Made by a program: the position numbers and the translations under genes
DNA from: Verrucomicrobiota bacterium
Lineage (GTDB): Bacteria > Verrucomicrobiota > Verrucomicrobiia > JADLBR01
Assembly: GCA_029560585.1 (NCBI GenBank)
Contig: JAKQKQ010000329.1
Location: forward strand, 1-46,467
Length of the DNA: 46,467 nt
Reading direction: 5' to 3'
The notes under the pieces: generated by a model
What the model was told of the DNA's origin: nothing
Seen by the model: the letters and a program-made list of their open reading frames with translations, nothing else
The model's database searches: none
Shown here: positions 14,581-22,160 of the stretch, piece after piece
How positions within the stretch are numbered: the first letter of the stretch is position 1
Layout: every line of letters begins with the position of its first letter

Positions 14581-14752
14581 TATTTCATGAGACAAATTGG
14601 CGAACGACTGCGCCCATGGATGCACCAAGAACCCTTTTTTTCTGCCAATCTGCTGTCAACAGAGAGCATCGCTCCACTTGACCCCCCCCGGCCTCACCAT
14701 TACGTTGTGTTCAGGTTCCCGACGGTCCCATCACCCACACTCCGAGGTACCG

Positions 14753-16153
14753 ATGCACGACCCCCGCTCACGCTCCTCCAACTCCTTCGGCACCTGTCCC
14801 CAGGGCCCGCATGTATATTTTTGCTTCCCGGCCTCCACCTGCACCGGCGGCTTTCTCAAACGCTCTCCGTATCCCATCGGCTGGCCCGGCACAACGCCAT
14901 GGAGCCCTCCACCATGCCCACCCTTTCCCCCGCATGCCGAATCATCTCCCGCGCACACCCCTCAGCCCCCCACCAACGTGCGCCTGCTCCTGGATGCCTT
15001 CTATGAGGACCACAGGAAGACGCTCGACTCCCTCCTGCTCAACCACCCCCTTTCCTCCCTCTTCTGGGAGTGCACGCGCAATTGCAATCTCAGGTGCGGA
15101 CACTGCATGGCCCCAAGGGAGACGTGGAAGAAGGAAAAGGAACTGAGCACCGGGCAGATCAAACAGGTGCTCAAGCAGTTCACCGAGGATTTTCCCGCCC
15201 ACACCTTGTCCACCCTGGCCATCAGCGGAGGCGAGCCGCTGCTTCGCAAAGACATCTGCGAGATCATTGCCTATGCCACGCAACTCGGATTTGACATTTC
15301 CCTCAGCACCAACGGCTGCCTCATGGGCAAGAATACGGGGCTGATCGACGCCCTCGTGAAGGCCGGCCTCACCCGGTCCTGCTTTTCGTTCGACGGGCCC
15401 GAGAATCACCACGATTTCGCACGGGGCGCCAAGTGCTTCGGGGACGTCGTCAATGCAATCCAATATTTTGTCAAAAGATATCCCTATTGCGGCCTGCAGA
15501 CCGGGACCATGGTGACCCGGTACAACCTCTCCATGCTGGACGAGACCTTTTCGCTGCTCGAGGAATTGGGAGTGCGCGAGGCCCAATTCGGAAGGGTGCT
15601 CCCGCTGGGGCGGGCGCCGGCGGACCCCATGAATTTCCTATCGGCCGGAGAACTCGGCTCCTTGCTCCAGTGGATCGCGGAGAAGAAGCGGCTCTTCCAT
15701 GCGGGCAAGACCCGTCTCTCCATCAATTTCACAGATGATGGGTGGTGCGGGCGCGCCTGCGACGGCATAGGACTCGAGGGGCTCGTCCAAGACGAGCCCT
15801 TCATCTGTACTGCCGGCCTGACCATGGCGACTATTCATTATGATGGGATGTTGGGCGCTTGCTTGAGCCTTCCGCACAGCTTGAGCCATCAGGGCAACCT
15901 GCTCGTCAGGCGTCCGGGAGATATATGGCGGAATGAGTTCAAGAAGTTCAGAAATAGAAGCTGGCTTCACCAGGGTCCCTGCCTCCAGTGTGGCGAATGG
16001 GCCTACTGCAGGGGTGGCGGCATCCACCAGCGCGATGATAATGGGGGCCTCCGGGAATGCCCGTATCTCAAACTGCGGGAGTCGTTCAGTGGCGCGAAAG
16101 AACATGGAGGCATCACTGGGAGCGTCGCGCCGATCAAAGCCGCCCATAACTGA
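14753..16153 (+). CDS. Radical SAM/SPASM protein with Cys/Pro-rich N-terminal extension
   Basis: A 466-residue radical SAM enzyme. The SAM-cluster motif CNLRCGHC (Cys111, 115, 118) is followed by the glycine-rich SAM-binding motif SGGEPLL, and a C-terminal SPASM-type region CLQCGEWAYCRGGG would hold auxiliary iron-sulfur clusters. SPASM enzymes often modify peptides. Residues 1-75 are unusual: Ser/Pro-rich with Cys at 15, 24, 30 and 55. The ATG at 14753 has GAGG upstream, but a GTG at 14978 would remove the extension entirely, so the true start is unsettled. No separate precursor peptide is evident nearby. Confidence 0.83.
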   Translation: MHDPRSRSSNSFGTCPQGPHVYFCFPASTCTGGFLKRSPYPIGWPGTTPWSPPPCPPFPPHAESSPAHTPQPPTNVRLLLDAFYEDHRKTLDSLLLNHPLSSLFWECTRNCNLRCGHCMAPRETWKKEKELSTGQIKQVLKQFTEDFPAHTLSTLAISGGEPLLRKDICEIIAYATQLGFDISLSTNGCLMGKNTGLIDALVKAGLTRSCFSFDGPENHHDFARGAKCFGDVVNAIQYFVKRYPYCGLQTGTMVTRYNLSMLDETFSLLEELGVREAQFGRVLPLGRAPADPMNFLSAGELGSLLQWIAEKKRLFHAGKTRLSINFTDDGWCGRACDGIGLEGLVQDEPFICTAGLTMATIHYDGMLGACLSLPHSLSHQGNLLVRRPGDIWRNEFKKFRNRSWLHQGPCLQCGEWAYCRGGGIHQRDDNGGLRECPYLKLRESFSGAKEHGGITGSVAPIKAAHN

Positions 16154-16445: not shown

Positions 16446-16634
16446 AATCTCATCCCGTTGCAACACACAATCGCAAGGGGATTTGGCAAAAATCAACTCT
16501 GCCGATTCCGGGTCAAAACAGCAATTCTCTGTGAACTGAACTGGGTCTGCTCTTCACTCCCAAACTGCCTGCCAATCCACCCCTGGTCCACAGAACGGGA
16601 ACGCGCCAATGACACCAAATCTCTCACAGCTACC

Positions 16635-18266
16635 ATGAAATCGACCCGTTGTGAAATCATTGGGCTTCTGGCTTTGGCTGGCGGCATGCTGGCTCCCCTG
16701 GCCGCCCACGCGGATGCGCCGCCGCCGCCCAATCCCGCCGTGGATGCCGGAGCCAAATGGCCGACCCGTCGGGCGCAAATCAAGCAGGAATGGCTGAAAC
16801 TACTGGGACGTTTTCCCGCAAGCAAACCCCCGCTGGACGCGGAAATCCTAAGTTCGGAACTCCTCCATCCCCACCCGCCCGCGATCGACCCCAGTGATCC
16901 TGCGCACAGCGCAGATATCACACGCCATAAGGTGAAGTTCCGCTCGGAAGCCGAATCCAGCGGCGGTTCGCAGTCGGACAAATGGATCTATGCCTGGCTG
17001 CTGGTGCCCAAGAGCGTGACGGAGGCCCATGCCAGGCACGGGCACAAATCCCCCGCCATTATCTGCCTGCACAGCACCACCTATGGCGCGGGAAAAAGCA
17101 GCACCGTCGGACTCGCCGGCCGCTTTGCTTCGGAGGCCAGTATCGGATTCGTCGGCCGCCCGGACCTTGTCGGCGTTGATCCGCGCTATAACAACAACCT
17201 GCCGGACCCGGCTGATCCCAAGGCAATGGCGGATTTTGAAGCGGGCGGACGGGCCAGCGCACTCATCCTGGCCAAACAGGGCTTCGTGACTCTCAGCCCC
17301 GATCTGATCGCCGACGGAGAGAGGATCGAGCCCGGCCAGAGACCGCTAGACACCCGGCAGTTTTACAAGCGTTATCCCGACCCGATGGCGGAGGACGCCT
17401 GGTCGGTGATGGGCAAGAACATCTGGGATGTGATGCGCTCGGTGGATTTCCTCCGGACACTTCCTTACTTGAATGACCAGCTTGGGTGCACCGGATGGTC
17501 GCATGGCGCCCACACCGCGCTATTTGCCGCCGCCTTCGACGAACGCATCACCGCTACGGTCTCCAACGGAGCCGTGCTCGACTGGCATCGCCCGACCTAC
17601 CCGCCGGGCTATGCCGGACCGCCCAAGGCCAATGCCTGGTGCCGCAATCCCTCCAGCTGGGAGCCTTGGACGGCCGACGGGCCGGAGAAGCCTTCGCGCG
17701 GCGAGGCCACCTTGCGCCGCTGGGGTTTCATCCAAAACAGCGGTCCGGTCATCTATATCCCGAAGTTCTCCAAATATGTTTTGCCCGCGAATAGGGATCT
17801 GCAGATCCCGGTGGGGTTTGAGAGTCTGATGATGATGGTGGCGCCACGGCCCCTCCTGATCATTTCCAGCGAGATCGAATTCCGCCAGCACGAAATTCTC
17901 CCCAAATGCATGGCAGCCTTGCATGTCTATTATCGATGGCATGACGTTGAGAATTCGGGGCTCCCGAGCCCGCTTCAGGCGAGGAGAGAACGAACAGGCT
18001 ATCAGGAGACGGTGGATTATTATGTCCGGAACAACGAATACGCCCCGGAGGGAGTCGATCTTTATCTCAAGAGCCTGAAGGCTGGCGACTGCTTCAGTTG
18101 GTTTTCGTTCCCAGGCGGCCACAGTTACCCGCCCGCGGCTCAATTGCTCACCGCCGGATGGTTTGGCCGCTGGCTCGGTCTCTCTCGCCCGGCCCCGGTC
18201 CCGCCGCTGCCAAACATCCCCGCAAATAAGGCGCTCGATATCGGGCCGCCTTGGAACGGCTCGTAA
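16635..18266 (+). CDS. Secreted alpha/beta hydrolase (acetylxylan esterase/dienelactone hydrolase-like)
   Basis: A 543-residue exported hydrolase with a signal peptide ending at AAHA (about residue 26). The nucleophile elbow is GWSHGAHTA, and the catalytic His is probably in GGHSYPP near the C-terminus. The arrangement resembles large acetylxylan-esterase-like proteins of Verrucomicrobia and Planctomycetes, which deacetylate plant or algal polysaccharides; the substrate here is inferred. I chose the ATG at 16635 because it starts the signal peptide. It lies about 190 bases after the tRNA gene. A stretch at about 360-420 is unlike the core fold and may form a lid. Confidence 0.75.
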   Translation: MKSTRCEIIGLLALAGGMLAPLAAHADAPPPPNPAVDAGAKWPTRRAQIKQEWLKLLGRFPASKPPLDAEILSSELLHPHPPAIDPSDPAHSADITRHKVKFRSEAESSGGSQSDKWIYAWLLVPKSVTEAHARHGHKSPAIICLHSTTYGAGKSSTVGLAGRFASEASIGFVGRPDLVGVDPRYNNNLPDPADPKAMADFEAGGRASALILAKQGFVTLSPDLIADGERIEPGQRPLDTRQFYKRYPDPMAEDAWSVMGKNIWDVMRSVDFLRTLPYLNDQLGCTGWSHGAHTALFAAAFDERITATVSNGAVLDWHRPTYPPGYAGPPKANAWCRNPSSWEPWTADGPEKPSRGEATLRRWGFIQNSGPVIYIPKFSKYVLPANRDLQIPVGFESLMMMVAPRPLLIISSEIEFRQHEILPKCMAALHVYYRWHDVENSGLPSPLQARRERTGYQETVDYYVRNNEYAPEGVDLYLKSLKAGDCFSWFSFPGGHSYPPAAQLLTAGWFGRWLGLSRPAPVPPLPNIPANKALDIGPPWNGS

Positions 18267-18511: not shown

Positions 18512-19198
18512 TCATGACGCCATCAGACTCACGCAAAGGTACAGCCCGACGGCGATGAAAACCGCGCCGGTGATCTCGCGAGAATGGCGTTCGATCTTAG
18601 CCATCGCGCCCGATGCCCTGGCGGCCCTCTGGAGACCGACGGCGATGAGCGCGGCGAACAGAAGCACCGGCAGCCCCGTGCCAATGCCATAGAGCGCGGG
18701 GAGGAAAAAGGGCGATCCGACATTGATGGCGAGGGTGACCATGCTAAAGAACTGCACTGCCCCGAGCGGGCACAGTGAGAGCCCGAAGACGATGCCCAGG
18801 AGCAGCGCCGCGGCCATGCCCCTTCCCTCGCCCCGCCTTTCGAATACGCGCGCGGGGGCGCACAGGAACCGCGCGTCGATTCTCAGGAGCCCGACCATCA
18901 GCATCCCAGACAGAATGAGAACCGGGCCCAGTAACATGTTAGCGTACTTCTGAAGAAGGGCGGCCGCGGCGGGAGCGGAGAGCGCGCCGGCGCAGATCGC
19001 GGAACCCAGGGCGGCATAGGTCCCGGCGCGACCGAGGGTATAGCAGGCGCCACCCACGAGGGTACGGCGGGGCGTGCCGGCCGCCTGCGCGAGATAGAGA
19101 AGGGCCGCGGCGTTGGCCGCCAAGCCGCAAGGTCCGGCGGTCGTGAGGATCCCCAGCCAAAGGGCGGTGGCCGCGGCGATGCCTGGACCCGGTGTCAT
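18512..19198 (-). CDS. ArsG/CcdA-like membrane protein (DsbD transmembrane family)
   Basis: A 228-residue inner-membrane protein with about six helices. It carries the paired membrane cysteines of the CcdA/DsbD fold: GPCG (Cys24) and LCPLG (Cys143). The family includes transmembrane thiol-disulfide carriers and the ArsG-type permeases reported for aromatic arsenicals. Its ATG overlaps the stop of the upstream G3E-ArsF gene (ATGA, 19195-19198), so the two are translationally coupled. That partner carries an ArsF-like CxxC domain, which favours the ArsG reading, but a pure thiol relay is a real alternative. I excluded a longer upstream reading that only overlaps the partner gene. Confidence 0.78.
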   Translation of the reverse strand: MTPGPGIAAATALWLGILTTAGPCGLAANAAALLYLAQAAGTPRRTLVGGACYTLGRAGTYAALGSAICAGALSAPAAAALLQKYANMLLGPVLILSGMLMVGLLRIDARFLCAPARVFERRGEGRGMAAALLLGIVFGLSLCPLGAVQFFSMVTLAINVGSPFFLPALYGIGTGLPVLLFAALIAVGLQRAARASGAMAKIERHSREITGAVFIAVGLYLCVSLMAS

Positions 19199-20796
19199 TG
19201 GCGCCCGCCCAGGTATCCGGCGACCTCGTCCGCGATGTACCGCTTGAATCCGTCCCCTTCGCCCAGCAGATCCCACACGCGATCCAACTTCTTCCAGCTC
19301 CGCACCGTGCCGTCGCGCGTCCTCACGACAACCACCGTGCGGGTGACGAGCTGGTACTCTTCGGTGAAATGCGCGTTCCCGGCGATGTCTGTGTTGACGC
19401 TGCGCCACGCGACCGCGCCGCTGGCCATCTGTGCCCGGAAGTTCTCGGCGATGGCCTCTCGGGTGAATTGCTCGATGCGGTCGCAGCTGTCGCAGCGGTA
19501 ATGGCCGTGGAAGTAGAATACCACCACGCCGTCCGCAACGAGTTGGCCAGGGAGCGGGGCGATGGTGCTGCGGATCCCCTTCTCTTTCGAGATCATGACA
19601 CCCGCGTAGGCCACGAGGAAAAGCAGCAAAGCCGCCGTCAGCCACCAGCGCCATCCTCGGGCGCGATGTGGTGGCGGCGCCGCCGGGGGCGTGAACACAT
19701 CGCGGTAGCGGTGTGTCGGATTTGGGCGCCCCGGCCGCAGGGCCCGCATCTCCAAAGGCGACACCACGATGCCGGTGCCGGCCGCCCCCGTGACCGCCGC
19801 CCCCACGACCTCCCTCAAACGTTCCGGGGGCATCTCGACCCGCGCGTTGATGGTGAGCCTGGCCCGCTCCGGCGCACCCCTTATGGATCCGCGCACGGAC
19901 GGCTCCTCGCCCGAGCGGGTCATGTTGGCGGCGAGATGATCGGAGCCGGCCTCAAGCAACAGCTTCACGTGCCCAATAGTGGCCCGTTCCTCTGCAAGCG
20001 CGAGGCCCAGACGGCCCATGATATCGACCGCGAAGATGTCCCACGCGGGCGCCCCACCCGCCCGGTTCAGCGCGTAGGTCCCATTGAGCCAGCCGAGGGC
20101 GGCCTCGCCCTCGGCGTATATGTCGTAATCCACGTCCACGATATGGGTCCCGGCATCGACGCCGGACAGGACCCGATCAAGCCATGGTTCGACGCCGTCA
20201 CCGCGCGCCGCCGAGATGAATCGCGCGCAGGTTTCAGGTAGCTTCTGCCGCAGGAGCCCCTGGAGCCGCGCCCTTTCCTCGGGGGTGATGAGGTCGCTCT
20301 TGTTAACCGCGATGAGGTCTGCCTCCTCAAGCTGTTTCCAGTAAATGTATGCGGCGCTCGGGTGGAGCCCCCCGCGCCCGTCAGACAGCACCGCGGCAAG
20401 CCGCACCGGGTCGGCCAAGATGGTGAGGGGCGCGAGGCGAAAGTCCTCGCGGAAGTTCTGCTTGAGCGGTTGGAGGATCGTGGCGGATAGGTCGGTGCAG
20501 CTTCCCACGGGCTCGGCGATCAGGGCGTCCGCCCGCACCGAGTGCCGGAGGTCCTGGGCCTCGCGCACCAGACCCGCGAAATCGCAGCAGAAGCAACTCC
20601 CCGCCACCTCCCCAACGCTGACACCCTGGAGCCTCAGGAATCCGGTGTCGACGAGCTCGGGGGCCTGGTCATTGGTGATCAGACCGACCCGTTTGCCCCG
20701 AGCGATGAGGAGCTTTGCTGCCTCCCACAGGAGCGTGGTCTTGCCCGCCCCGAGGAACCCGCCGACGAAAATGATGGGGACGATTTTAGTGGCCAT
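19195..20796 (-). CDS. G3E GTPase fused through a membrane helix to an ArsF-like CxxC domain
   Basis: A 533-residue fusion. Residues 1 to about 370 are a G3E (CobW/HypB/UreG-class) GTPase: Walker A GGFLGAGKTT (12-21), the metal-binding motif CFCC (68-71) and NKSD (165-168). G3E proteins load metals or cofactors using GTP. A helix follows (about 386-403). The C-terminal 110 residues are a thioredoxin-like domain with YRCDSC (Cys435, Cys438) and a VNTDIAGNAHF segment, matching ArsF-family proteins by recall. The expected topology is GTPase inside, CxxC domain outside. The start at 20796 has AAGGG upstream and begins right at the P-loop strand; a longer reading to 20940 only overlaps the aquaporin gene. 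Confidence 0.8.
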   Translation of the reverse strand: MATKIVPIIFVGGFLGAGKTTLLWEAAKLLIARGKRVGLITNDQAPELVDTGFLRLQGVSVGEVAGSCFCCDFAGLVREAQDLRHSVRADALIAEPVGSCTDLSATILQPLKQNFREDFRLAPLTILADPVRLAAVLSDGRGGLHPSAAYIYWKQLEEADLIAVNKSDLITPEERARLQGLLRQKLPETCARFISAARGDGVEPWLDRVLSGVDAGTHIVDVDYDIYAEGEAALGWLNGTYALNRAGGAPAWDIFAVDIMGRLGLALAEERATIGHVKLLLEAGSDHLAANMTRSGEEPSVRGSIRGAPERARLTINARVEMPPERLREVVGAAVTGAAGTGIVVSPLEMRALRPGRPNPTHRYRDVFTPPAAPPPHRARGWRWWLTAALLLFLVAYAGVMISKEKGIRSTIAPLPGQLVADGVVVFYFHGHYRCDSCDRIEQFTREAIAENFRAQMASGAVAWRSVNTDIAGNAHFTEEYQLVTRTVVVVRTRDGTVRSWKKLDRVWDLLGEGDGFKRYIADEVAGYLGGRQ

Positions 20797-20849
20797 GGTG
20801 CTCGATCCCTTGGAAGCCCATTTGTCCGGTGATGCTCGCTGGAAACTCT

Positions 20850-21752
20850 TCAGTCGCGATAGGCCGACTCGAAGAACGCCCGGTAGATGCCACCTCCAAG
20901 CAGTCCCCCGAGCAACGGCGCAAGGATGTAAACGGTCCACCAGCCGTGGCCGTTGGCCTCGAACGGGATCGCGCCCCAGCCAACCAACGACGAGAATACG
21001 CGCGGCGCCAGGTCGCGCGCCGGGTTGAAACAGGCCATGGTCAGGGGCCCCAGCAGCGAGATCAGCAGCGTCACCGCCAGGCCGATCGTCGCGGCGACCA
21101 GGATCTGCGGGCGCGACCTATTGCGCTCGTCGGTGGCGCAGAAGATCACCAGGAGAAGCACGGCTGTCCCGATGGCCTCCGCGACGAATGCCGACGTCCC
21201 GCTCATCCGGGCGCGCAGGGCCTCGGTCAGCGGCGCCCCGCCCGGCGACGGGAAGAACTCGCCGAAAACCATCGCGGTGGCCTCGCTGCCCTGCGCCCCC
21301 CTGACGATGCCGTGCGCCCCCTCGTAGGCCCGCAGCGCGTCGCCAAAGATCAGGTAGAGAACCGCCGCCCCGGCGAAAGCGCCCAACATCTGCGTGGTAA
21401 TATAGGGCAGCACGCGCGACTTGGGAAAGTCCGACCACACCGCCATGCTCACCGTCACCGCCGGGTTCAGGTGCGCGCCACTCAATGCGCCCGTCAGATA
21501 AATGGCGGTCGCGATGCCAAGGCCCCACACGATCGCAACCTGAAAAACCCCGACCTGCGCGCCGGTCGTGACCGCCGCGCAGACGCTGCCGCAGCCAAAG
21601 AATACGAGCAGGAACGTCCCGAAGAATTCGCCCGTCCACCACTTGGGAAGCCATTTCATCGCCACCGCGGCCGTGGCCTTGCCCGCCCCGAGAAAACCGC
21701 CGATCATGATGCATCGCGCCTTTCCGGCCAGGTCACATGGCGCCAGTTTCAT
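20850..21752 (-). CDS. GlpF-like aquaporin (MIP family) with G3E P-loop remnant at the N-terminus
   Basis: A 300-residue channel protein. The MIP pore motifs are HLNPAV (first NPA, 96-98) and FNPARD (second NPA); the Asp after NPAR is typical of glycerol facilitators, which pass arsenite and antimonite as neutral hydroxides. Residues 1-31, before the channel proper at Met32 (MKWLPKWWTGEFFGTF), contain RCIMIGGFLGAGKAT, a recognisable G3E GTPase Walker A. This looks like the truncated start of a lost second GTPase. If translation begins at Met32 (21659), the remnant is untranslated. It lies between arsR and the G3E-ArsF gene, a context like that of AqpS-type arsenite channels. Confidence 0.85.
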   Translation of the reverse strand: MKLAPCDLAGKARCIMIGGFLGAGKATAAVAMKWLPKWWTGEFFGTFLLVFFGCGSVCAAVTTGAQVGVFQVAIVWGLGIATAIYLTGALSGAHLNPAVTVSMAVWSDFPKSRVLPYITTQMLGAFAGAAVLYLIFGDALRAYEGAHGIVRGAQGSEATAMVFGEFFPSPGGAPLTEALRARMSGTSAFVAEAIGTAVLLLVIFCATDERNRSRPQILVAATIGLAVTLLISLLGPLTMACFNPARDLAPRVFSSLVGWGAIPFEANGHGWWTVYILAPLLGGLLGGGIYRAFFESAYRD

Positions 21753-21755
21753 AGC

Positions 21756-21772
21756 ATGTTTGCGCAAACGTG
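21756..21772. promoter_or_regulatory. Palindrome in the arsR-aquaporin gap (candidate operator)
   Basis: The perfect 12-base palindrome GTTTGCGCAAAC (21758-21769) extends imperfectly to CATGTTTGCGCAAACGTG. It sits just upstream of the aquaporin start, in the 100-base gap after arsR, where an ArsR-type repressor would be expected to act. TTGACG further upstream on the minus strand could be a -35 element. Function is inferred from position only. Confidence 0.35.
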
Positions 21773-21854
21773 CAGATATCGAATACCCACGTCAAACGGT
21801 TCTTTTGCCAAGCGGGCGGGCCGGGGCCAGGCCCTAGCGGCCGGCCATGGGGGG

Positions 21855-22160
21855 CTATTTCGGAAGCTTGTCGAAGCGGAACGTGCAGCACTTCAGCTCC
21901 AGCACGTTCCGGTTGGCGGCCAGCTCACTCTTCAGGCGAGGGGTCACGCCATAGAGCCGGCATTTTCCCGATTTCTCCATGTCCAGGAGGCCTGCCTCCT
22001 TCAGGATCCGCAGGTGCTTGGACACGTTGTACTGCGACATCCGGAGCCGGGCGGAAATGGTGCCCACGCCAAGCCGCTCCTTGAGCAGCAGGCGCATGAT
22101 CCGCAGGCGATTCATCTCGCCCAATGCCCTGAGCACCGCGAGGCAGTTTACCCCTTGCAT
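21855..22160 (-). CDS. ArsR/SmtB family transcriptional regulator
   Basis: A 101-residue winged-helix repressor. The recognition helix region is MSQYNVSKHLRILKEAGLLD (about 41-60), followed by the wing KSGKCRLYGVTP. Cysteines at 6, 67, 91 and 92 are candidate trivalent metalloid ligands; a vicinal CC near the C-terminus is known from some arsenic-sensing ArsR proteins. The N-terminal start is at the first ATG giving a normal ArsR length; the frame runs further upstream only as an antisense reading of the ABC-F gene. It heads the aquaporin, G3E-ArsF and ArsG-like cluster and probably represses it. Confidence 0.87.
   Translation of the reverse strand: MQGVNCLAVLRALGEMNRLRIMRLLLKERLGVGTISARLRMSQYNVSKHLRILKEAGLLDMEKSGKCRLYGVTPRLKSELAANRNVLELKCCTFRFDKLPK

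Follow-up and report, generated by a model that had tools for sequence, protein, structure and literature searches.

Two kinds of described arsenic gene sets provide the closest points of reference for the locus reported here. The arsEFG operon has been assigned to the detoxification of roxarsone and nitarsone (Chen, Zhang and Rosen, 2019, as summarized in PMC9144182), and aquaglyceroporins of the MIP family are encoded in ars operons (PMC4435449), as exemplified by AqpS in Sinorhizobium meliloti and an AqpS-ArsC fusion in Salinispora tropica (PMC6205960). The stretch of 46,467 nucleotides analysed here (the window) comprises positions 1 to 46,467 of contig JAKQKQ010000329.1 from Verrucomicrobiota bacterium assembly GCA_029560585.1. 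Between positions 18512 and 22160 it carries four genes, all on the minus strand, for an ArsR regulator, a GlpF-type aquaporin, a protein in which a G3E GTPase is fused via a transmembrane (TM) helix to ArsF, and ArsG (Table 1). These identities, the fusion, the coordinates and the strand had been proposed in a preliminary description derived from the DNA letters and were confirmed by profile matches, the cut-offs of Pfam and NCBIfam being applied to the proteins of all four genes. With moderate confidence we read the locus as an ArsR-controlled operon for trivalent arsenic, possibly also for antimony, in which two modules that occur separately elsewhere have been joined. The more important result is that one of these modules, the pair of aquaporin and G3E GTPase, constitutes a general unit.

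Relatives of the GTPase domain were drawn from 84,980 species genomes, and the nearest ones stem from Bacteroidota, Bacillota, Planctomycetota, Lentisphaerota, Kiritimatiellota, Armatimonadota, Thermodesulfobacteriota and others. Among the best 80 G3E loci, 63 contain a match to aquaporin at E ≤ 1e-4 and 62 at a stricter threshold, compared with about 0.04 expected by chance, which is our own estimate from one to two aquaporins per 4000 genes. In nearly all of these pairs the two genes lie within about 200 bp of each other on the same strand, with the aquaporin first. In a Sedimentisphaerales metagenome-assembled genome (MAG) both are even contained in one open reading frame (L212:7029-9107) with only some 15 residues between the domains; a structural model of this fusion reached a predicted template modelling score (pTM) of 0.67, and the relative placement of its domains was not used as evidence. 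The window exhibits the same arrangement, i.e., adjacent genes on the same strand and a GTPase with the motifs G[SG]CFCC and EPVGSC, which are present in 97 and 99 of 100 G3E relatives, respectively. In a tree calculated with a quick method, of which only the neighbors of the window sequence were interpreted, the window GTPase groups with that of its sister species and then, with moderate support, with planctomycete proteins linked to aquaporins. The window aquaporin is a MIP family member that scores above the Pfam cut-off and contains both NPA motifs, with NPARD. Its closest solved structure is GlpF from Escherichia coli (1fx8), and alignment to this structure yields the aromatic/Arg filter W-I-A-R, common to 67 of the 73 partner aquaporins of G3E relatives. 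Plant NIP channels with a W-V/I-A-R filter pass arsenite.

A role in metalloid metabolism, as suggested in the preliminary description, is backed by the genes that surround the GTPase relatives, among which ArsL, ArsM, ArsN1, VcpD and ArsS recur. Relatives with 29-39% identity are encoded in 17 plasmid records, and seven of the eight plasmid neighborhoods examined are arsenic islands, originating from three Priestia plasmids, Alicyclobacillus, Pantoea, Klebsiella and Enterobacter; the eighth, from Leptolinea, contains no arsenic island. The gene order is ArsL-aquaporin-G3E-VcpD, followed by ArsN1, ArsR and pump genes, in Priestia, ArsM-ArsL-G3E-ArsN1 in Alicyclobacillus and ArsM-G3E-aquaporin-GNAT-ArsR in Pantoea, Klebsiella and Enterobacter. 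Model matches verified ArsL and VcpD in a single Priestia record, where the product following the G3E protein (L239:5126-5509), annotated as hypothetical, matches NF047871, ‘ArsD-related vicinal cysteine protein VcpD’, with 188 bits (cut-off 90). Outside these islands, matches above NCBIfam cut-offs reveal ArsS and an arsenosugar peroxidase-like protein adjoining G3E in Clostridium drakei as well as an ArsM of the arsenosugar type (AsSugarArsM) that adjoins the aquaporin in Sporomusa and in a MAG of a related Bacillota member (L178/L183). In Gemella and in a MAG from Desulfobacterales (L227/L159), the pair is followed by ArsM-like genes. One further locus that clustering had suggested as an ArsM neighbor, L154, was dropped as no such gene is present. 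The aquaporins of the plasmid islands belong to another subfamily than the window aquaporin; that the GTPase family is paired with differing channels, be it through new acquisition or retention of the pairing, speaks in favor of a functional connection. Taken as a whole, these neighborhoods render the arsenic link of the GTPase relatives well supported, and arsenic or a like metalloid is very probably the substrate. As a separate observation, a BioB-like radical SAM protein of no named family recurs beside G3E (L150, L152, L160, L162, L168, L175 and L224; 43 bits for BioB vs. a cut-off of 225 in L150), accompanied at several loci by a C-GCAxxG-C-C protein. It also occurs near ArsS in C. drakei and may be another arsenic enzyme.

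The second module, ArsF-ArsG, is of a different kind. The ArsF domain combines its family match with a CxxC motif that is invariant in 29 sequences. The AlphaFold2 model of this part consists of a TM helix and a thioredoxin fold with a predicted local distance difference test (pLDDT) value of 91.6; a Foldseek comparison of the model with the PDB retrieved mostly thioredoxins, and the domain is predicted to reside outside the cytoplasmic membrane. ArsG exceeds the cut-off of its model only narrowly; its membrane cysteine pair, already pointed out in the preliminary description, is conserved throughout (Cys24 in 51/51, Cys143 in 52/52 homologs), and this invariance, together with the match of its homologs to Pfam DsbD_2, a domain that the window protein itself does not match, fits a CcdA-type carrier. 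An electron relay of the CcdA-thioredoxin type from ArsG to ArsF is probable. Within a sample of 388 genomes from the phylum, ArsF occurs in 56. Counts at 58 ArsF loci (ArsG adjacent in 53, an ArsE-like thioredoxin, identified by TIGR00412 ‘MTH895/ArsE family’, in 48 and a permease in 46) establish ArsR-permease-ArsE-ArsF-ArsG as the ordinary order, and at 11 loci ArsE and ArsF are fused in an open frame (L048-L050, L055, L058-L063, L100). None of the four genes in the window encodes ArsE, all of their domains being identified, and aquaporin and G3E stand where permease and ArsE normally stand. Since ArsE and a permease usually accompany ArsF-ArsG and since ArsE-ArsF fusions recur, the GTPase can be regarded as occupying the slot of ArsE.

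Insight into the origin of the junction came from a sister genome of the same genus, Verrucomicrobiia bacterium SJ186 (G002; loci L045 and L148 are one and the same contig). Here, contig C444 carries ArsR-aquaporin-GTPase, homologous to window positions 22160 to 19603, and contig C139 carries ArsF-ArsG, homologous to positions 19635 to 18591, so that both homologies, at a DNA identity of about 77%, meet inside the TM segment of the fusion. The GTPase on C444 stops just past this segment beside a dispersed repeat with a core of about 40 bp (C444:4187-4333), which has 63 matches on many contigs of the genome containing the window and 41 matches in G002, where one copy is located at the cut of the fusion. 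As the sister GTPase possesses the TM segment that free-standing G3E relatives lack, the simplest reading of the sequences is that the fusion predates the split of the two species and was later broken in G002; alternatively, an assembly break in G002 may separate the halves. The converse, an assembly artefact creating the fusion in the window, appears unlikely because the sister GTPase ends in the same TM segment and the homologous halves meet there. The full four-gene set was found in no other genome, and the ArsF and ArsG profiles match none of 100 aquaporin-G3E or G3E loci. Members of the G3E group and ArsF occur together in 2 of the 388 phylum genomes, no more than the 3.3 expected by chance. 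The earlier proposal of a single recurrent system comprising the four families therefore had to be rejected; a junction unique to this genome and its split sister, combined with co-occurrence at chance level, indicates a lineage-specific join of two independent modules.

This chance-level co-occurrence is one of several observations that weigh against interpreting the locus as an operon with a GTPase dedicated to arsenic. Characterized G3E proteins handle zinc, cobalt or nickel. Most aquaporin-G3E loci in Bacteroidota lack a recognized arsenic gene beyond ArsR, which is present in about ten of them, and G3E relatives of a second clade (clade 2) sit with DUF116/prenyl synthase genes, mostly without aquaporin. 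The genome containing the window encodes Acr3 on another contig, a search of it for ArsM yielded nothing above cut-off, and beside the window locus, the area covered for ArsL and ArsS, neither of these accompanies ArsM as in an arsinothricin or arsenosugar cluster. Furthermore, E. coli produces arsinothricin with no more than ArsL and ArsM (PMC8552651), such that the aquaporin-G3E pair would be accessory to C-As chemistry, serving As(III) supply, containment or export. With regard to clade 2 (L138-L147), ferredoxin, DUF116/polyprenyl synthase, terpene-cyclase-like and radical SAM genes are found in several genomes, apparently representing a different cluster.

Among the competing explanations, the one that fares best holds that the fusion arose neutrally, by accident, as the locus rearranged, leaving two modules under a single regulator and the GTPase without a functional link to ArsF. 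Such an accident would account for the confinement of the four-gene set to one genome, the split of the sister’s genes at the TM segment beside a dispersed repeat, the vestigial G3E start ahead of the aquaporin gene (see below) and the lack of genome-level co-occurrence of G3E and ArsF. It is nevertheless rather doubtful, given that 533 codons are free of stops with the catalytic motifs whole on both sides of the junction, that the sister’s TM-bearing GTPase suggests a fusion older than the species split and that ArsE-ArsF proteins document a recurrent fusion of N-terminal partners to ArsF.

We regard it as unlikely that the G3E protein is an ordinary COG0523 chaperone for zinc or another divalent metal that serves a metalloenzyme, with ArsR sensing zinc or cadmium and the proximity to arsenic genes being incidental. 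In the cobW domain of the window GTPase, the features of G3E (COG0523) proteins are all intact: the P-loop GFLGAGKTT, the CxCC motif as GSCFCC (Cys68/70/71) and NKxD as NKSD; these motifs and EPVGSC (Cys100) are invariant in alignment A1. The CxCC motif resembles the metal site of COG0523 proteins, YjiA is the nearest solved relative, and ArsR family members sense many metals. A zinc-linked COG0523 subset has been described (PMC2770081). The C-terminal domain CobW_C, typical of many albeit not all G3E members, gave no match in the window GTPase at E ≤ 0.001. Against a zinc chaperone, none of the NCBIfam zinc-chaperone models scored above cut-off. Moreover, the repeated occurrence of G3E among ArsL/ArsM/ArsN1/VcpD/ArsS genes in at least four lineages and its frequent partnership with an aquaporin, a channel that passes neutral solutes and not Zn2+, are difficult to reconcile with a zinc chaperone. 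Affiliation with the ArsA ATPase was not apparent either: the P-loop part of the GTPase profile also matches ArsA, the similarity being confined to that region, the fusion protein has no match to the Pfam ArsA domain, and the GTPase of L212 attains only 11 bits vs. a cut-off of 24.3.

Improbable to a similar degree is the explanation that ArsF-ArsG serve thiol-disulfide or copper homeostasis in the envelope and not arsenic, the aquaporin-G3E half being independent and merely fused to them. The DsbD_2 matches of ArsG homologs, the bare margin by which the window ArsG passes its model and the resemblance of the usual permease to the Cu/Zn efflux family SO_0444, albeit below cut-off, point in this direction, while the ArsR shared by both halves, the relatives of the fused GTPase in arsenic islands and the naming of ArsEFG for roxarsone/nitarsone resistance (Chen, 2019, as summarized in PMC9144182) contradict it. 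The proposal that not arsenic but a different neutral metalloid hydroxide (antimonite, selenous, germanic or boric) or a small organic molecule is the substrate can draw on the passage of several such species by aquaglyceroporins and on the CobW-related selenoprotein model as the best NCBIfam model for the GTPase (55.8 bits, cut-off 180), yet it is quite improbable with arsenic genes as recognizable neighbors of most plasmid relatives examined.

Returning to the operon for trivalent arsenic, we infer As(III) as the ligand, its ligation by cysteines, the direction of flux, the electron flow and the regulation as follows. As(III) or an organoarsenical would relieve ArsR, and the aquaporin would allow passage of neutral trivalent species of the As(OH)3 type. 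The GTPase, an NTPase of the SIMIBI class like ArsA and a putative thiol chaperone, would be tethered at the membrane via the ArsF helix and may capture As(III) at the cytosolic mouth on CFCC, perhaps with Cys100; its GTP cycle could either time when As(III) is passed to an acceptor or returned to the channel, or gate the flux. Besides the neighborhoods, the W-I-A-R filter, the thioredoxin fold of ArsF and the ArsA match of the P-loop part of the GTPase profile speak for this reading. That it acts directly on the metalloid or the channel is a proposition for and against which we see equal weight. ArsG, being CcdA-like, would carry electrons from cytosolic thiols outward to the CxxC motif of ArsF, which may reduce a thiol site or arsenicals that are oxidized or pentavalent/nitro-aromatic; on the outer face, arsenic or thiol partners would thereby be maintained in reduced form. 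For this genome we would favor downhill efflux as a means of detoxification, in line with the proposal for AqpS, and for the arsinothricin and arsenosugar islands a supply of As(III) for organification. Tentatively, one may go further and see in aquaporin and G3E a new type of nucleotide-coupled metalloid transport or delivery, in which a SIMIBI GTPase of many phyla would load or gate the aquaporin and which in this genus would be fused to a CcdA-thioredoxin relay, such that redox chemistry and GTP act on the same metalloid pool. A transmembrane thiol relay powered by GTP, as envisaged in the preliminary description, remains hypothetical: relays of the CcdA type work without a nucleotide, and at most loci ArsFG are accompanied by ArsE and not by a GTPase.

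Regulation may be exerted at the block between arsR and the aquaporin gene, which is conserved with the sister species as CGATATnTGC...TGCGCA and palindromic in both, making it a candidate ArsR operator. The window ArsR has cysteines at positions 6, 67, 91 and 92; the sister protein (L045) is 81% identical and retains Cys6 as well as the C-terminal Cys91-Cys92 pair. The reading frame of the aquaporin is open from position 21752 or earlier, and homology to the sister species (L045) begins only at the ATG at 21659. Upstream and in frame, a short remnant resembles the first codons of clade-2 G3E (L140-L146), implying that the locus formerly carried a second GTPase gene. The genes for the fusion protein and ArsG overlap by 4 bp. 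A promoter/terminator scan of the locus returned signals near chance level, a PHROGs search gave no match, and neither did phmmer vs. the PDB with the whole fusion as query. On the opposite strand, a large alpha/beta hydrolase matching fungal glucuronyl esterase (39.7 bits) adjoins ArsG at 16458-18266, and a radical SAM/SPASM protein akin to TIGR04133 (212.9 bits, below the cut-off of 425) is encoded nearby at 14597-16153.

Table 1. Genes, domains and putative regulatory elements of the ArsR-aquaporin-GTPase/ArsF-ArsG locus (window coordinates).
Feature	Position	Strand	Basis
ArsR/SmtB metalloregulator, 101 aa	21855..22160	-	NF033788 68.7 bits, cut-off 55
Aquaglyceroporin (GlpF-like)	20850..21659	-	Pfam MIP 162.2 bits; alignment to 1fx8
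G3E GTPase-TM-ArsF fusion protein, 533 aa	19195..20796	-	cobW and NCBIfam ArsF matches, hydropathy
G3E (COG0523-type) GTPase domain	19672..20796	-	cobW 71.8 bits, cut-off 20.7, fusion residues 7-183; conserved motifs
Single TM helix, residues ~383-404 of fusion	19585..19650	-	hydropathy; helix 2-24 in AlphaFold2 model
ArsF domain, thioredoxin fold, C435xxC438	19219..19527	-	NF040494 98.2 bits, cut-off 60, fusion residues 424-526; model; Foldseek
ArsG, CcdA/DsbD-like membrane protein, Cys24 and Cys143	18512..19198	-	NF040495 203.4 bits, cut-off 200
Candidate ArsR operator	21755..21772	.	imperfect palindrome CACGTTTGCGCAAACATG, arsR/aquaporin intergenic
Putative vestigial start of second G3E GTPase	21660..21752	-	translation KARCIMIGGFLGAGKATAAV vs. 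clade-2 G3E KARYIMIGGFLGAGKTT

The aquaporin-G3E pair is a conserved two-gene unit that keeps company with the arsenic-organification enzymes ArsL, ArsM and ArsS. Should it act on arsenic, it would represent a metalloid branch of the large and mostly uncharacterized COG0523 family and, to our knowledge, the first GTPase coupled to an aquaporin; it may then explain how As(III) is supplied or contained in arsenic-metabolizing bacteria, and the fusion in this genus suggests the membrane and redox partner of the GTPase. In agreement with the preliminary description, the coupling of the two proteins is seemingly undescribed. Phrase searches for G3E with aquaporin or arsenite found no report in the openly accessible literature covered; the text of the COG0523 survey contains neither ‘arsen’ nor ‘aquaporin’ (PMC2770081), and that of the arsinothricin cluster paper neither ‘GTP’ nor ‘aquaporin’ (PMC8552651). 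The four-gene set itself is best described as a variant ars operon.

Compared with arsEFG, the window shares the position of ArsF, with its thioredoxin fold and CxxC motif, directly before ArsG as well as a cytosolic partner adjoining or fused to the ArsF N terminus, whereas ArsE and the permease are replaced by a G3E GTPase, fused to ArsF, and an aquaporin. AqpS-type operons likewise place an aquaglyceroporin together with ArsR among arsenic genes; there, however, the partner of AqpS is the arsenate reductase ArsC, while in the window a GlpF-like aquaporin with a W-I-A-R filter is combined with a G3E GTPase. On plasmids, arsinothricin islands (ArsL, ArsM, ArsN1; arsQML in PMC8552651) include an aquaporin and a G3E GTPase related to that of the window, in Priestia also VcpD. 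They differ from the window, which lacks ArsL and ArsM, by the subfamily of the aquaporin, and the published arsQML cluster is devoid of a GTPase (PMC8552651). With the COG0523/G3E metallochaperones YjiA and ZigA, the window GTPase has the nucleotide-binding domain and the CxCC motif in common but, without a match to CobW_C, is distinguished by EPVGSC, the aquaporin partner and the attached TM helix and ArsF. Finally, a P-loop NTPase of the SIMIBI class beside a membrane channel is reminiscent of the ArsA/ArsD/ArsB pump, as is the ArsD-like VcpD beside the G3E protein of Priestia, although the window encodes a G3E GTPase with NKxD instead of the ArsA ATPase and an aquaporin instead of ArsB. 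If transport proves to be nucleotide-coupled, the pair would be analogous to ArsA-ArsB, albeit with a different NTPase and an unrelated membrane component.

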